Shown one piece after another: positions 7,812-55,294 of a DNA stretch of 64,000 nt. Position 1 is the first letter of the stretch, and each line of letters begins with the position of its first letter. The stretch covers positions 1 to 64,000 of the forward strand of contig JAOTTS010000005.1 of assembly GCA_029864335.1 (NCBI GenBank). Reading direction: 5' to 3'. The stretch is from Candidatus Nitrosopumilus sp. Lineage in GTDB: Archaea > Thermoproteota > Nitrososphaeria > Nitrososphaerales > Nitrosopumilaceae. The position numbers and the translations under genes were made by a program. The notes under the pieces were generated by a model. It did no database searches and had not been told where the DNA came from. It was given only the letters and a program-made list of their open reading frames with translations.

Positions 7812-8021
7812 ATGCCTGAGTTTATTTGTCCCGACTGTGGAAAACGCCTATTTCATGAAAATGAAACAACATTAAAGATAGAGGAAACAATACACTCAAA
7901 ATTCTGTAGAAAGAGTGAGGGAGAAACTCACAGTTATATGCATAGAGATTTAGCACACATGCAGACTTTTGATTCAGAAAGGGAAAACGATACATCAGGC
8001 ACACCAGTTTTAAAGAAATAA
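7812..8021 (+). CDS. Small zinc-ribbon-like protein (69 aa)
   Basis: The in-frame ATG at 7812 (MPEFICPDCGKRLF) fits better than an upstream codon, because the knuckle is then near the N-terminus. CPDC is followed by Cys and His residues (KFCRK, ETHSYMH) that could complete a zinc site. The C-terminal 25 residues look disordered. Confidence 0.65.
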   Translation: MPEFICPDCGKRLFHENETTLKIEETIHSKFCRKSEGETHSYMHRDLAHMQTFDSERENDTSGTPVLKK

Positions 8022-8073
8022 TTTCACAGAAATTACTCAAAATTATATTCTAGGCATTACTGATTGAGTTAGG

Positions 8074-9294
8074 TTGTCTGAAGAACATCGTTATGACTTA
8101 GTTGTGGTTGGAGGAGGGCCAGCGGGATCATCGGCTGCGGATGCTGCTGCAAAAAATGGAATTAAAGTGGCCCTAATAGAAAAAGAAAGTTCAATTGCTG
8201 AAACTGTTAGAACAAGTGGAGTCACATGGATTCAAAATATCAAAGAGTTTGGAATTCCAGATGACTGTTTTAATCCAATCAAAAATTTTTCATTTTGTTC
8301 ACCAAACAATGAGGTTACAATTAGTGACTCAGTTCCACGAGCTGCAGTATTAGATGTTAGAAAAACATACCGATGGCTAGCTCAACAAGCCAAGCATTCA
8401 GGGGCAGACATCTTTGTAAAAATTAATGTGAACAATGTAATCAAAAATGAGAGAGGAGATATTGCAGGAGTTAGCGGTATTGGACCAAATGGGAAAATCA
8501 CGTTTCATTCAAAAGTGGTGATTGATGCAAGTGGATTCCCATCTACAGTTTGCAAAGCGATGGGTTTTGTAACTCAATGGAAAAGATTTGGAGCAGGGGC
8601 AGAATATGAGGTAAAAGCAGAAAATGCAGAATCAGACACATGGTGGCTGATGGTAGGCCAACAATACTCACCAGCTGGATATGCCTGGATTTTTCCTTTA
8701 GGAAACAACAGGGTTAGAATTGGGGTAGGCATAGGTAAACCGGAATCAAATGTAGACCCAACTCAAAGACTAAAAGAATTGATGGATTCAAAAATTGGGC
8801 CGATTAAAAGACTAGGAAAAATATCACCAATAGAGTTTCATTACGGATTGATTCCAAATGATGGGTTATCAAGAAAGACGGTATTTAATAACTTGATTTT
8901 AGTTGGAGATTCGGCAGGCCAAGCTAATCCGTTGGTTTTGGAAGGAATAAGATATGCAATAAAATTTGGCAGAGTTGCAGGAAAAGTTGCATCAGATGCA
9001 ATCAGATCAGGAAATACAAACAAAGATGCATTGCGTCCCTATGAAGAAAATTGGAGAAAAGAGATAGAATCAAAAATCAACTCTGCAGGAAAAGTACAGG
9101 ATAGATGGATTGGATTATCTGATGAAGAGTGGGATAAAGAATTAGATATCATTAAAGAATTAAAGCCGGAGGAGTTCATAGATTTTATAAAAGCTGAGTT
9201 TGGATTGTCAAACATGATAAAGTTAGCAACTCACCACCCAAAGCTTGCAGTAAGACAGTTATTCAATCTAGTGAAAGGAAAAAAATCACAATAA
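8074..9294 (+). CDS. FAD-dependent geranylgeranyl reductase family oxidoreductase
   Basis: This 406-aa flavoprotein starts at TTG 8074. The dinucleotide-binding motif VVVGGGPAGSSAA is at about residues 9-21, and a C-terminal FAD motif, LVGDSAGQANPL, is at about 276-287. The family saturates geranylgeranyl chains of archaeal membrane lipids or reduces isoprenoid quinones. The membrane-lipid role is the usual archaeal one, but several paralogues exist in such genomes, so the exact substrate is uncertain. A methyltransferase gene follows two bases after its stop. Confidence 0.85.
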   Translation: MSEEHRYDLVVVGGGPAGSSAADAAAKNGIKVALIEKESSIAETVRTSGVTWIQNIKEFGIPDDCFNPIKNFSFCSPNNEVTISDSVPRAAVLDVRKTYRWLAQQAKHSGADIFVKINVNNVIKNERGDIAGVSGIGPNGKITFHSKVVIDASGFPSTVCKAMGFVTQWKRFGAGAEYEVKAENAESDTWWLMVGQQYSPAGYAWIFPLGNNRVRIGVGIGKPESNVDPTQRLKELMDSKIGPIKRLGKISPIEFHYGLIPNDGLSRKTVFNNLILVGDSAGQANPLVLEGIRYAIKFGRVAGKVASDAIRSGNTNKDALRPYEENWRKEIESKINSAGKVQDRWIGLSDEEWDKELDIIKELKPEEFIDFIKAEFGLSNMIKLATHHPKLAVRQLFNLVKGKKSQ

Positions 9295-9296
9295 AG

Positions 9297-9923
9297 ATGG
9301 ACAAAGTCAGAAAAACATTTGATGAGTGGGCTCAAAATGGAAGAGCAGAATTAATGGAATTAGAGCACGGAAAGAACGTTTCAAAATTTTTGCAAACCAT
9401 ATCATTTGACAAGCCATTTACATTTCTAGATGTAGGGTGTGGAAATGGATGGGTTGTGAAGAAAATTGCCATGAAGAAAAATTGCAGAAAAGCAATAGGT
9501 ATCGACAAAAGCAAAAAAATGATTATTCAGGCTATACAAAAAAAAGGCAGTAAAGAAGAGTATATTCATACAGATATAGAATCAATGAATTACAAAGGAA
9601 GATTTGATTTTGTATTCTCGATGGAATCTCTTTATTATGCAGATTCGATTGAAGTTGCACTGAAAAAAATATTCAAACTGCTAAAGCCAGGAGGAATTTT
9701 TTTCTGCGGCACGGATTTTTATTCTGATAACAAGGCCACTGCCAAATGGGCAAAAATTATGAAAATACAAATGCATTTGCATTCAAAAAAAGAGTGGAAG
9801 GAGTTTTTCAAAAAAACAGGATTCATAGTAAAAACAAAACAAGTCAAAGATCTGGAAAGTAGGAAAAAATGGAAACGTGAATTTGGGACATTGTTTATCA
9901 TAGGCACAAAACCTCAAAAGTAA
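9297..9923 (+). CDS. Class I SAM-dependent methyltransferase
   Basis: This 208-aa enzyme has the Rossmann-type SAM motif FLDVGCGNGWV (about residues 42-52), motif II GIDKSKKMI, and FDFVFSMESLYY as the post-II region. The gene begins two bases after the reductase stop, so the pair is an operon. Methylation of a lipid or quinone that the reductase also handles is a reasonable inference. Confidence 0.82.
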   Translation: MDKVRKTFDEWAQNGRAELMELEHGKNVSKFLQTISFDKPFTFLDVGCGNGWVVKKIAMKKNCRKAIGIDKSKKMIIQAIQKKGSKEEYIHTDIESMNYKGRFDFVFSMESLYYADSIEVALKKIFKLLKPGGIFFCGTDFYSDNKATAKWAKIMKIQMHLHSKKEWKEFFKKTGFIVKTKQVKDLESRKKWKREFGTLFIIGTKPQK

Positions 9924-9955
9924 TACTCAAATTCAATTAAAACATATGTTCATCA

Positions 9956-10237
9956 TGTGAGCTGGAGCACGACATGCTGCTACGGCAGAGGAAACTCCTC
10001 CCTCCAAACAGGAAATGTGATCTGGCGATAGATAATCAGAGATGATTGGCAACGGAGCAGAAAAAAATCCAATATGGCGCACTGTGATGGCAAAACCTGA
10101 GATTTCCATAAAAGGAATGAAAAAAGCCGCCCCACATGGAGCAAGGCCAAACAGAACTTAAAGTTCCTGTACTAGGTTCAGGTAGGCTGCAAAGCGAAAT
10201 ATCGTGAAAACAGAAGGAGGGTTACTCCCAGCACACA
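9956..10237 (+). ncRNA. rnpB: RNase P RNA (archaeal type)
   Basis: A 282-base intergenic transcript with the RNase P conserved core. GAGGAAACTCC near 10001 is the 5' strand of P4 (CR-I). AAGGCCAAACAGA near 10143 resembles CR-IV, and ACAGAAGGAGGGTTACTCCC near 10210 is CR-V. The ends pair as helix P1: TGTGAGCTGG at 9956 with CCAGCACACA at 10228-10237, with one mismatch. It trims the 5' leaders of tRNAs. The exact ends are inferred from P1. Confidence 0.92.
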
Positions 10238-10239
10238 TA

Positions 10240-10255
10240 ATTTTTAATTTTATTT
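10240..10255 (+). terminator. T-rich terminator after RNase P RNA
   Basis: A T-run (aatttttaattttatt) follows helix P1 of the RNase P RNA directly. Archaeal transcription commonly ends at such U-runs without a hairpin. This is inference from composition and position. Confidence 0.45.
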
Positions 10256-10406
10256 CGGGTGGGTTTTAAAAAAAGTGTTATGAGTTTATTGACAATCAAT
10301 AAAAATAGAATGCCCCTTCTGAGCGTGAAAACGTCTTATGACTTATGCTAGTACTGAGGTTGATTTGTTGGAGTGTTTTTAATTATAACAATTGCCTGTA
10401 TATGTT

Positions 10407-11363
10407 ATGAAGAAAGGTGCAATTATTGTAATTGTGGTAGGCATTATTGTAATCGCCGTAATAATTGCAGGAAATAATATAACTCAAAATCAAACAACTG
10501 AATCGATCAGAGTAGATACAACAGTAGAAAGAGCAACTAATTCTTCTCAAATTTCTACAACACCATCACAATCTGTACAGACAACTAAATTCTCTTGTGA
10601 TCCATCATATCCTGATGTGTGTATTGCCTCTTGGCCTCCCAACTTAGATTGCGGAGAGATTTTGTACAGGAATTTCAAAGTTATTGGAGAAGACAAGCAT
10701 GGGTTTGATGGCGACAAGGATGGAATAGGCTGTGAAACGACATCTACCATTCAGCCAACTACATCCACTACTTCCAAGTACTCATCACAAGAGTGTTCTG
10801 GAATTGCGGGATGCATCATAGGAACTGTAACCAGAATAATTGATGGAGATACCATTCATGTTGATAATCAGTCTGTACGATTTTCCTTGGCATCAGCTCC
10901 TGAATTAAAGGGATTTGGAGGAGTAGATTCGAGAAATTTCATCCAAACGATTTGTCCTGTTGGTTCTGAAGTGCTAGTTGATGAAGATGATGGACATATT
11001 TTAGGTAGTTATGGTCGAATGGTTGGAATGATTACTTGTAATGATGTGAATCTCAATGAAGAATTACTTGATGCCAATTTGGGGCATTTGGAAGTGAGAT
11101 TCTGTTCTTCCAGTGAGTTTGCAAATGAGTCTTGGGCTATCAAACATGGATGCATAGCAAATTCAGTTTCTAAATCTGTTGCGCCTGTTCAAGATTTTCA
11201 GATTGATGAAAACAAATGTGATCCTTCATATCCTGATTTCTGTATTCCATCCGGCCCCCCTGACTTGGATTGCAAAGATATTCCACAAAAAAGATTTACA
11301 GTTTTGCCATCAGACCCACACAGATTTGATGGTGACAAGGATGGGATTGGATGTGAATCATAA
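10407..11363 (+). CDS. Secreted or anchored SNase-like protein flanked by two Excalibur-type Ca-binding modules
   Basis: I place the start at ATG 10407, just before a hydrophobic signal/anchor (about residues 4-22), giving 318 aa. After a Ser/Thr-rich linker comes a first Cys-rich module ending FDGDKDGIGCE. A staphylococcal-nuclease-like OB domain follows (GTVTRIIDGDTIHV onwards, about 125-240), and then a second module ending the same way. D-x-D-x-D-G-x-x-C is the Excalibur calcium-binding signature. Some SNase catalytic residues (an Arg-rich loop, and Glu near the second Arg) are hard to recognise, so activity is uncertain. It is probably extracellular. Confidence 0.8.
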   Translation: MKKGAIIVIVVGIIVIAVIIAGNNITQNQTTESIRVDTTVERATNSSQISTTPSQSVQTTKFSCDPSYPDVCIASWPPNLDCGEILYRNFKVIGEDKHGFDGDKDGIGCETTSTIQPTTSTTSKYSSQECSGIAGCIIGTVTRIIDGDTIHVDNQSVRFSLASAPELKGFGGVDSRNFIQTICPVGSEVLVDEDDGHILGSYGRMVGMITCNDVNLNEELLDANLGHLEVRFCSSSEFANESWAIKHGCIANSVSKSVAPVQDFQIDENKCDPSYPDFCIPSGPPDLDCKDIPQKRFTVLPSDPHRFDGDKDGIGCES

Positions 11364-11393
11364 TAATTGATTTTTCATGGCTCTTCAAGGTCA

Positions 11394-11618
11394 GAAAATC
11401 ATTGCAACGTAAAATTTCTTAAAGGCTACAGCCACTCTATCTCAGTAAAAAATTCTAAGATAATTTTAAAAGATAACCAGAAACCATTTTCAAAACCTAC
11501 AACTGAAGAGTGATTTGCCAAGGACATGCCATATGAAAAAATCATTCTTTCAGGTAAAGGGTACATTTCTAATGAAGCATTATCATTACTTTCTCAAAAG
11601 TTTGATAGACTCCTCTAG
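11394..11618 (+). pseudogene. Remnant of a Cas1-like endonuclease/integrase N-terminus
   Basis: One open frame (11394-11618) is interrupted only by TGA at 11511-11513 and has no good start. The translation includes FLKGYSHSISVKN, then KPFSKPTTEE, the stop, and FAKDMPYEKIILSGKGYIS followed by NEALSLLSQ. The pattern of a beta-hairpin, then a segment like KIILSGKGYISxEAxxLLxQ, is what the N-terminal domain of Cas1 (CRISPR or casposon type) looks like. It diverges after LLSQ and has no C-terminal catalytic domain. The identity is from memory of the family, not a search. Confidence 0.5.
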
Positions 11619-11671
11619 CTTGCCTACCATATGATTAAATGAATAATAATTAGAACGTAATTTTAAAAAGT

Positions 11672-13039
11672 CTAGCCCATTGATTGAGCATTCTCTTTAC
11701 AAATCTCTGCTGCACATTCGCATGATGCATCACATAGACAAGAGCCTTGCATCTCACAATCACATTCAGAGCCCATTTCAGCTGATGCTGCACATCCACA
11801 TGCTGCTTCTTGAGTTGAAGGTATAGATGCTTGTGGTGGCGGACTTTGTTGTTGAGGAGCATCATCATAAACACTTCTAGTTTGTTGATAATCAGTCTCA
11901 TCTCGTAATTGTGCCTCACCCCTATTGGTTTGGTAACCACCAGATGACGCACTAGTTTGATAACCAACTAATCTATTAGGATCAATTCCTTGTTGACCAA
12001 TTTTTTCATTTTTGAGGGATCTGTTACTTATAATGAAAAATCCAATTCCTGCAACTGCTGCCATTCCAGCCATTCCATAAACTATCATAATAGGAAAGTC
12101 ACCAGTTGAAGTTGTAGCATATCCTTCTGGAGGAGTTGGAGTAACACCTGCAATTTCAAGACCATCCAAAATATCCAAAGCCCCAAAACCAATCATAGAT
12201 AAGTTAGCCTGATCTGATGATTGTACACTTCTAACAGTATATTTTTGATCAGCATTAACTTCTGCTGTAAATACTCTTTCAACTTGTCGGCCTTCTCTAA
12301 TACTACTTTCACCCATTGTCCAACTGGATACTACAAATCCTGATATTGATTCATCTAATCCAAATGTACCAGCATCTACATTGATACCAGTTGGATCAAA
12401 CAAAAAGTGCCAGTTAGTAAGTGGTTGTTCTAAAATAAAATCGGCATTAATAATTGGTCTATGAAGAACTTGCTCAGCTTGAGTTCCAGCAAAAACAGCA
12501 TAAACTGCTGGCTCTTGGTCTCGTAGCATGTTAATAGGAATATTAATTTCGACACCGTCAATGTTGATTTCGTCATTTACTGTCATTCCTCTCCAGCCCA
12601 AATCAACTAAAGTTCTTTGAGCATCTTTTGTAATTACATAACCAGTAATGGTTCCTTCTATGAGAACCTTATAGTCAATTGATGTATTGATGTTTCTTCC
12701 TTTCAGTAAGAATTCATAAGTCACATTCAAATCGGAAATTTTTGCATGACTTCCATCATTAGATAATTTTTGATTTAGTTTTTTCATCAGATCCTGAACA
12801 CCAGGGTTAGATGAGTCTGCAGTTCCAGAAACAGTCCATTCTTTTCCACGTAATTCATCAAATAGATTGCCACTGTTTGGATATTCAATGAAGACTGTTT
12901 TTAGATAATGCATTGAAAATGGAGATGAATCAGAATTAGGATTAATTCTTGCATCTAATTGTGCGGCCCAAGCAGGACTACTTGTACCAATAACAACTAG
13001 TCCCGCAAGCAAAACTGTTAAAATTACAGCCCTAGACAC
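11672..13039 (-). CDS. Secreted/membrane protein with signal peptide, one TM helix and a Cys-rich cytoplasmic tail
   Basis: GTG start at 13039, 455 aa. There is a signal peptide (about 1-25, ending SPAWA-A), a large extracellular domain (26-325) I do not recognise, one membrane helix (about 331-350, IMIVYGMAGMAAVAGIGFF), and a Gln/Ser-rich tail. The tail ends with nine cysteines in C-x-C pairs (ACGCA, ECDCE, SCLCD, SCECA). That tail could bind metal or form a metallothionein-like cluster. The topology (outside domain, inside tail) is inferred from the signal peptide plus a basic residue cluster after the helix. The gene stands alone, divergent from cofD. Confidence 0.7.
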   Translation of the reverse strand: MSRAVILTVLLAGLVVIGTSSPAWAAQLDARINPNSDSSPFSMHYLKTVFIEYPNSGNLFDELRGKEWTVSGTADSSNPGVQDLMKKLNQKLSNDGSHAKISDLNVTYEFLLKGRNINTSIDYKVLIEGTITGYVITKDAQRTLVDLGWRGMTVNDEINIDGVEINIPINMLRDQEPAVYAVFAGTQAEQVLHRPIINADFILEQPLTNWHFLFDPTGINVDAGTFGLDESISGFVVSSWTMGESSIREGRQVERVFTAEVNADQKYTVRSVQSSDQANLSMIGFGALDILDGLEIAGVTPTPPEGYATTSTGDFPIMIVYGMAGMAAVAGIGFFIISNRSLKNEKIGQQGIDPNRLVGYQTSASSGGYQTNRGEAQLRDETDYQQTRSVYDDAPQQQSPPPQASIPSTQEAACGCAASAEMGSECDCEMQGSCLCDASCECAAEICKENAQSMG

Positions 13040-13155
13040 AAATAAAATTCACAAAATAACGGTAATAAACTTATCCTAATTTTGCTGATCGCAATTTTTT
13101 GAAAAAGTAATATGGAGTAATGTAGCATAACTTGATAGTTTTAGGGGAAAATGGT

Positions 13156-14076
13156 ATGATCACAGTTTTAGCAGGAGGAACAGGTTCAGTCAAATTAGTT
13201 AGAGGACTGGTTGCTCAAGAATCCAAAGTTAATGTAATTAGTAATGTGGGGGACAATTATTGGCTTTATGGACTCTATGTTTGTCCAGATATTGATACTA
13301 TTGTTTATGGTTTAGCAGATTTGCTTGATCAAGAGAGAGGTTGGGGAATGAAGAAGGATACTTTCAACTTTTTACGTCAAATGGAAATTTTTGGAGAAGA
13401 GACATGGTTTAGAGTTGGAGATAGAGATGCTGCAACACATTTGATTAGAACTAATATGTTAAAGAATGGAAAAAATCTAAGTGATATCACTAAATGGATG
13501 TGTGAGAAATTTGCAGTTAGCGCAAACATCATTCCAGTAACTGATAACAGTATAGAAACACGAATAACTACAGACAAAGGAGAATTACACTTACAAGAAT
13601 ATTGGGTTAAACATAGAGGCAAAGATCCTGTTTTAGGAATCCAATATATCGGGGCAGATAAAGCTCGTCCAAATCCAGAAGCAGTAAATGCAATACATGA
13701 TGCAGACATGGTAATTATAGCTCCAGGAAACCCTCTGACATCAATTGGTCCAATGCTTCAGATAAAAGGAATTAGAAAAGAGTTATCAAAGATTAAGAAA
13801 AAAGTTGTTGCAATAAGTCCATTAATTGGAGAAGATGCAATTACCGGTCCTGCAGCAAAATACATGCAAGCAGCAGGAATTGAATCTAATACTTATGGAT
13901 TAGCAAAAATGTATTCAGATGTGTGTTCCAATATCATCTTAGATTCTAAAGATAGACTGCTAACAAAGAAAATTCAGAGTTTAGACATGAGAGTTTTTGA
14001 AACAAAAATCACCATGAAAAATAAATTAGCTGAAGACGCATTAGCGAATTTTATTTTAAAACAAGTACACGTTTAA
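13156..14076 (+). CDS. cofD: 2-phospho-L-lactate transferase (F420 biosynthesis)
   Basis: CofD transfers the phospholactyl (or phosphoenolpyruvyl) group to deazaflavin FO. The start at ATG 13156 gives the typical MITVLAGGTGSVKLVRGL; a TTG 24 bases upstream is less likely. The protein of 306 aa matches the family. Later motifs include SNVGDN, PDIDTIVYGLA and APGNPLTSIGPML. cofC follows with one base between, so these form an operon making F420-0. Confidence 0.95.
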   Translation: MITVLAGGTGSVKLVRGLVAQESKVNVISNVGDNYWLYGLYVCPDIDTIVYGLADLLDQERGWGMKKDTFNFLRQMEIFGEETWFRVGDRDAATHLIRTNMLKNGKNLSDITKWMCEKFAVSANIIPVTDNSIETRITTDKGELHLQEYWVKHRGKDPVLGIQYIGADKARPNPEAVNAIHDADMVIIAPGNPLTSIGPMLQIKGIRKELSKIKKKVVAISPLIGEDAITGPAAKYMQAAGIESNTYGLAKMYSDVCSNIILDSKDRLLTKKIQSLDMRVFETKITMKNKLAEDALANFILKQVHV

Positions 14077-54682: not shown

Positions 54683-55294
54683 ATGGTGAAAAAATTGACT
54701 GCTGATTACAACGAACTAACAAAACAAGTTCTCAATCTGTACCCACAAGTCAAATTTGCAGGAGTTGTAAATATCAAGGGAGAAATTGTTGCAGGAGGGC
54801 ATAAAGAAAATGTCGATCAAATACTGGTTGGCGATGAGGTCAAAATGTCAATTCATTACTCCATACAAAAAAGAGACATCTATACTAATTTGGCATACAA
54901 AATTGGAAAAGAAAGATCTGCAATTACAGAATTTGAAAAAGCTGCAATTATTAGTATTCCAATAAATTCCAATGAGTTATTTTTAGTTCGTACAGATAAA
55001 GGGGTTGATTATTTAAAAATTGTTGATTTTGTTTATTCAAAACTAGATCTTCAAAAATACATTCGTGAAGAAATTAAAGTAATTAAAAAAGAGATTGAGA
55101 AATTAAAAAAACTCAGTGAGAATATGAAATTAAAAAAGAAAAGTGTTGTTAAGAGAAAACCAGTTAGAGAGACGGCTGCAAAGAAAAAGACAGTCAAGAG
55201 AAAACCAGTTAGAGAGACGGCTGCAAAGAAAAAGACAGTCAAGAGAAAACCAGTTAGAGAGACGGGCAAATCTAAAAGAAAATCTACCAGGTAA
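54683..55294 (+). CDS. DUF6659-type protein with lysine-rich tandem-repeat tail
   Basis: Start at ATG 54683 (one codon after a TTG). The first 125 residues match the 123-aa paralogue at 47119-47490. After a short coiled coil (KEIEKLKKLSENMK) comes an about 55-residue basic tail of repeats KRKPVRETAAKKKTV (2.6 copies of a 45-bp unit at 55151-55264). The tail resembles linker-histone-type C-terminal tails. It may bind DNA or RNA. The paralogue lacks the tail. Confidence 0.72.
   Translation: MVKKLTADYNELTKQVLNLYPQVKFAGVVNIKGEIVAGGHKENVDQILVGDEVKMSIHYSIQKRDIYTNLAYKIGKERSAITEFEKAAIISIPINSNELFLVRTDKGVDYLKIVDFVYSKLDLQKYIREEIKVIKKEIEKLKKLSENMKLKKKSVVKRKPVRETAAKKKTVKRKPVRETAAKKKTVKRKPVRETGKSKRKSTR
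55151..55264 (+). repeat. 45-bp tandem repeat, about 2.6 copies
   Basis: Copies at 55151-55195 and 55196-55240 look identical, with a third partial copy starting at 55241. Each encodes 15 residues of the basic tail. Identity of copies implies recent expansion; the number may differ between strains. Confidence 0.9.

Follow-up and report, generated by a model that had tools for sequence, protein, structure and literature searches.

The short cas1-like frame in the 64,000-nucleotide stretch of Candidatus Nitrosopumilus sp. DNA analysed here (the window) is very probably the fossil left end of a dead casposon of the family-1 type, not the trace of a lost CRISPR locus. Casposons are transposons whose integrase, the casposase, is a homologue of Cas1. 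The assignment follows from the homology of the frame to casposases, from a left terminal repeat upstream of it and from the absence of the surrounding block in the relatives aligned at the site. The left repeat, one probable cargo gene and the first quarter of cas1 are kept; the remainder of cas1, the gene for the type-B DNA polymerase (PolB) and the right repeat are gone. Such a remnant cannot move itself. The features of the locus are the following, with strand in brackets where it applies:

9957..10236 (+), RNase P RNA gene, left host neighbour (Rfam RF00373, 184.8 bits)
10245..10251, left copy of the direct repeat TAATTTT, edge of the insert, from the alignment with L067, L068, L069 and L071
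10252..11657, block of about 1.4 kb, of which 10258-11647 has no blastn match in the loci of 14 aligned relatives
10272..10299 (+), stretch bordering the terminal repeat on its outer side and resembling the EF-2 3′ end (local score 13)
10300..10385 (+), left terminal repeat, family-1-like casposon; exact match over the first 17 bases, approximate inner limit
10392..11363 (+), open nuclease-like gene with Excalibur motifs, probable cargo; 323 aa if read from its first TTG codon
11377..11597 (+), truncated casposase gene (cas1), with a frame slip near codon 7, a TGA at 11511-11513 and the end of homology at about 11597
11598..11657, about 60 bases between the cas1 break and the host flank, origin not matched by blastn-short
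11658..11664, right copy of TAATTTT, edge of the insert, from the alignment with relatives
11672..13039 (-), host gene on the right side, also conserved in relatives; search of Pfam gave no family

The truncated casposase gene

As the preliminary description had proposed, positions 11394-11597 of the forward strand form a single frame interrupted by one TGA (11511-11513), and the peptides quoted from it lie where they had been placed. In the window's own genome (G000), residues 9-76 of the conceptual translation are 75% identical to a gene on contig C49 (65330-65533; E 5e-31), and the fragment is 53% identical to a Cas1 gene on contig C44 (E 1.3e-20); a short third match lies on contig C31 (E 8.8e-5). 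The C44 gene encodes a compact Cas1 of 322-323 aa (Pfam E 1.5e-45), and the C49 gene joins the start of Cas1 to the end of a type-B DNA polymerase (DNA_pol_B_2) in one frame. Given that both homologues lie above the Pfam cut-off for Cas1, the fragment is read as the start of a casposase-like cas1 gene, and the earlier suspicion of a Cas1-like fossil was well founded. The profile search recommended at that stage supported it only by way of these homologues: the fragment alone matched no Cas1 model in Pfam, NCBIfam or PADLOC, and its C49 and C44 homologues did. A search of the PDB with the fragment alone returned nothing useful. For the C44 Cas1, the best solved chain was 6opm, which we take to be the A. 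boonei casposase (E 6.8e-30), ahead of other Cas1 chains.

Three lesions mark the gene. Comparison with homologues puts the likely start codon, ATG 11377, in a different frame from the Cas1 reading at 11394 and beyond, which indicates a frame slip near codon 7; the TGA follows, and homology ends near 11597. About 75 first codons are kept, and the part of the gene expected to hold the catalytic residues of Cas1 (E, H, D, D) is absent beyond 11597. The end of the match at LLSQ, where a deletion joint had been suspected, is a real joint. The minus-strand frame reported beside it (SNYYSF...) is not part of that joint: among the compared loci it has no convincing relative besides the window's own copies (best E 0.37), and it looks like a chance frame.

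The left end and its probable cargo

The first 17 bases of the left terminal repeat, about 1.1 kb upstream of the cas1 fragment, match the pattern TAAAAATAGAATNCCCC with 0 mismatches (10300-10316), and 0.07 chance matches would be expected if up to two mismatches were allowed, the pattern having been drawn up after the repeat had already been seen in relatives and in the window. The identical 17 bases stand first at ends in L084, L087 and L091. No second match to the pattern occurs in the window and no inverted pair was found in 10000-12200. PolB has no match within 8001-14000 of the window; among the matches listed for G000, PolB pieces lie on C49, C31 and C2 only.

The gene between the repeat and cas1 (10392-11363) matches Excalibur with E 2.1e-8, and its thermonuclease matches are weak (best E 0.012). 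In genome G032 the order is EF-2, terminal repeat, a similar nuclease gene (SNase E 1.4e-6) and the first 41 cas1 codons, and window positions 11209-11461, which span the last part of the nuclease gene and the beginning of cas1, align to G032 as one piece at 80%. Since the gene occupies the same place in G032, between repeat and cas1, it is probably the element's own cargo; still open, it may be expressed. The view that the cas1 frame sat between two ordinary genes holds for the right host gene and fails for the upstream one, which lies between the left repeat and cas1. Given that the word thermonuclease does not occur in the main text of PMC6563490, nuclease cargo of this kind may be undescribed. 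Beyond the cas1 break, a blastn-short search of the compared loci with 11599-11657 returned only the window's own copies at E 0.01, and 11634-11669 has a short match at G000:C48:42585-42616 (83%, E 0.0018).

Fuller casposons in relatives and in the same genome

In relatives, the same Cas1 and PolB are encoded several kilobases apart, mostly on the same strand, the exceptions being L095 and one element of L090. A complete element there consists of a terminal repeat, one or more cargo genes, cas1, further genes, the PolB gene and a second terminal repeat. Clear terminal inverted repeats were detected in six of nine elements (scores 73-156, with at most 36 in shuffles) and not in the other three, in L082 and L084 possibly because the stretch ends soon after PolB. 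The relatives' repeats start with TAAAAATAGAATNCCCC or variants of it. Several elements lie directly behind the EF-2 gene, and some are arranged in tandem with 11 bases between the outer TTTTTA and TAAAAA. At L085 and L089, cas1 is matched over nearly its full length and both repeats are present, without a PolB match. Matches to a relative's Cas1 in named genomes came from two loci, both in Nitrosarchaeum, in keeping with a probable origin of the window in the Nitrosopumilaceae.

Family 1 casposons have been described from Nitrosopumilus and its relatives (NitAR1-C1 and others), with a compact Cas1, terminal repeats and variable cargo beside conserved genes, and with the 3′ end of EF-2 as their commonest target, according to the available portions of PMC4046053 and PMC6563490. 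The relatives' elements match this published anatomy in Cas1, PolB, terminal repeats and EF-2 site and are therefore considered family-1-like. Compared with family 1 casposons, the window keeps the left end only, occupies a site other than EF-2 and has no PolB. Decayed casposons in tandem are described for M. burtonii C3 and M. psychrophilus in the same portion of PMC4046053. These are inactivated copies, as in the window; however, they adjoin another casposon, whereas the window remnant stands alone between host genes and has one end.

The closest relative of the fragment in its own genome, the C49 element (75% identity; L032:9248-11897), is a two-ended casposon derivative of 2.65 kb. It contains an acetyltransferase-like gene, the in-frame fusion of the cas1 start with the PolB end (with a stop) and another gene. 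Unlike the window, which keeps one end, it has both repeats; its 11-base direct repeat, TTGAAAYTCTA, has one mismatch. On C31 from 93261 on (L034, L139, L140), decayed terminal repeats and the ends of polB and cas1 lie behind EF-2. Two further observations concern such derivatives: the left repeat of L032 provides the stop codon for the preceding gene, and at L179 (G195:C10) cas1, kept up to residue 74, has been joined independently and out of frame to PolB, which starts there at residue 381.

The insertion site

Some part of the region is matched in 99 of 151 searched genomes, and the alignment of the site covers 14 of these, which are 73-88% identical there and do not include the nearest relatives conceivable. 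Comparison of the same locus in related genomes, which the preliminary description had called for, bore out the presence of an insert: positions 10258-11647 have no blastn match in any of the 14 aligned relatives, and the flanks meet directly in four of them (L067, L068, L069, L071), with an overlap of 7-8 bases that reads TAATTTT in the window. In these four best-fitting relatives the shared DNA resumes at 11658. The other ten have 42 to 827 other bases between the aligned flanks. Separately, at positions 9286-9297 the window lacks some 2.9 to 3.4 kb that is present in 11 of the 14 relatives aligned.

The search for terminal repeats or a target duplication that had also been advised succeeded on the left side, with the repeat at 10300, and yielded the 7-base direct repeat that bounds the block. 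It gave no right repeat, and a target duplication of the casposon type was not found, the right end being absent; these two absences count against the casposon reading, together with that of PolB and with the lack of a Cas1 model match for the fragment alone. So do the block edges (10252 and 11657), which differ from the repeat edge (10300); the 48 bases outside the repeat are likewise unmatched in relatives. Given that the block edges are not the repeat edge, entry may not have been plain casposase transposition. We suggest that the block would have come in behind the RNase P RNA gene, either as a casposon or as part of one, and that its right side would have been lost by deletion or by incomplete insertion.

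Survival of element parts in 250 genomes

Across 250 genomes of the family, the matches listed for the C44 Cas1 at 49% identity or more, once merged, comprise 35 full, 38 N-terminal-only, 3 C-terminal-only and 3 middle loci; two of the three C-terminal-only loci are cut at a contig start, one of the 38 N-terminal-only loci is cut by a contig end, and rows below 49%, including a 45% C-terminal piece in G153, are left out. The C44 Cas1 lacks a normal C-terminus, its final stretch having no alignment with the other Cas1 sequences, and this query therefore undercounts C-terminal pieces. With the L094 query and listed rows of at least 48%, the tally is 35 full, 3 middle, 36 N-terminal-only and 10 C-terminal-only loci, two of the last being cut off by a contig start. 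For polB, the matches listed comprise 43 loci that keep only the C-terminal part, of which one is cut off by a contig start, against 2 that keep only the N-terminal part, of which one is cut off by a contig end; a further 28 loci are full and 10 are middle pieces.

Binomial P values, computed on the matches listed and assuming an independence of loci that does not fully hold, are 1e-8 for cas1 with the C44 query, 1.6e-4 with the L094 query (36 versus 10), 0.007 for L094 pieces of at least 60 aa (24 N-terminal versus 8 C-terminal) and 6e-11 for polB. In detection trials, all pieces of at least 60 aa from either end were recovered for 27 Cas1 proteins and all of at least 50 aa for 8 PolB proteins; for Cas1 pieces of 35 aa, recovery was poorer when they came from the C-terminal side. 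Elements thus tend to retain their outer ends and to lose the middle, a bias that is very clear for PolB and more moderate for cas1.

Among 48 loci, three of which are C-terminal or middle pieces and some of which are cut by contig ends, the short elements at C49 (L032), L088 and L196 are two-ended, with inverted-repeat scores of 90-100 (at most 36 in shuffles, which were made on shorter stretches); the cas1 piece of L196 is only 43% identical. Most of the 48 loci show no clear repeat pair. The clustering of cas1 breaks near codon 75 might have reflected one non-autonomous family, but this was rejected, no common sequence having been found after the break among those copies; a few other pairs of loci share sequence downstream of it. 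The titles and abstract openings of the literature searched contain no report of non-autonomous, remnant, miniature, internally deleted or truncated casposons.

The preferential survival of outer ends also speaks for a window remnant that was one-ended from the beginning, through incomplete replication from the ends or single-end integration, and not through later deletion. The 7-base direct repeat around the block fits such an origin, as does the finding, in the available part of PMC6614799, that purified family-1 casposase makes single-end integrations without a target present. However, the surviving end is not at the block edge, and internal deletions that retain both repeats (L032, L088, L196) give the same bias. 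We hold a one-ended origin to be less likely than not, though far from negligible.

It is very improbable that the truncated piece is a functional mini-protein, an N-terminal part of Cas1 that regulates casposon movement. Among the matches listed, 30 of the 38 N-terminal-only pieces lack an internal stop in the matched part, and synonymous codons outnumber replacement codons between the window and four copies (28:12, 27:17, 18:15 and 22:18), both of which would suit such a role. Against it, the reading frame of the window copy is broken by a TGA and by a frame slip, a synonymous excess is also expected from the time before truncation, the excess in two of the four window comparisons lies below all six among the other copies (20-29 to 6-17), and the sequences after the break mostly differ between loci.

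CRISPR origin and a second Cas1 group

A simple test for exact repeats detected nothing like a CRISPR array in the window, only a 45-base tandem repeat at 55151-55265, and Rfam lists no array there, only RNase P RNA and a tRNA; this agrees with the preliminary description. PF01867 (Cas1) has no match on the window's contig. Of the two origins offered at the outset, an old casposon or a lost CRISPR locus, the second is barely credible: the Cas1 family is common to both, the kept N-terminal part is present in both kinds and the C44 Cas1 finds matches among Cas1 chains from CRISPR systems too, but the closest matches of the fragment accompany PolB and terminal repeats, a left terminal repeat stands in the window, no array was found in it, PF09827 (Cas2), a model that also misses E. 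coli in a control, has no match in the 95.6% complete assembly, and the other Cas1 group of G000 is, where listed, 36-43% identical to the casposase queries. On these grounds a CRISPR origin was rejected.

That second Cas1 group has five partial copies in G000, at L112 (C33), L113 (C2), L114 (C52), L115 (C38) and L116 (C50). Copies in relatives are about 410 aa long, and three lie within 66 kb in G124. No PolB or CRISPR array was recognised by eye near the copies at L222 and L223. At the end of C2 (L113:13005-13303), seven identical tandem units of 43 bases, with an inverted repeat inside, extend to the contig end, directly behind a broken gene of this group; they could be a satellite or an assembly artefact.

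EF-2-like flanks away from EF-2

The window site is downstream of the RNase P RNA gene, and the repeat of the fossil casposon end is preceded there by an EF-2-like stretch, a weak match: the 28 bases before the repeat score 13 against the EF-2 3′ end, which 7 of 20000 background 28-mers reach, and the outer half alone is not significant (976/20000). C44 (16) and C48 (23) resemble EF-2 more closely, with scores that none of the background pieces attains. The sole EF-2 match in G000 is at C31:92569-93261, and the window, C44 and C48 loci are not EF-2. At C44 and C48 the flanks of three relatives meet, overlapping by 8 bases at the former and 6 at the latter, and the extra DNA includes the EF-2-like stretch. 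On C20, 17 bases identical to the window's stand before repeat-like sequence (score 13); the C44 insert carries these 17 flanking bases a second time. Similar flanks are found at L091 (score 23, with no EF-2 match there) and at G149:C47, and C49 shows no EF-2 likeness. The first comparison used nine reference ends that included L091, itself without an EF-2 match; dropping it leaves the results for the window, C44 and C48 unchanged.

Together with its ends, an element could possibly carry over its target, a suggestion to which the window contributes the weak match described above. The length of the EF-2-like stretch is close to that of the shortest competent targets of A. boonei, which span -15 to +14 or -24 to +5 in the available part of PMC6614799. 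In M. mazei, the available part of PMC10359463 describes a casposon end at a new locus with its own target sequence.

The window feature by itself is an ordinary fossil; novelty lies at most in the wider survival pattern, which is suggestive and unproven. It is conceivable, though we remain doubtful, that casposons in these genomes yield non-autonomous derivatives that keep their ends, either one-ended (window) or two-ended (C49, L088, L196), and that these ends carry an old EF-2-like target copy to new loci where it was previously absent. We judge this slightly less likely given the weaker bias in the cas1 recount. It has been proposed that the CRISPR adaptation module derives from casposons (PMC4046053 and PMC6452270, available portions). 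If the derivatives are real, these short, end-keeping elements would offer a casposase substrates to mobilise in trans, and a moving target site, if true, would match the observation in M. mazei.
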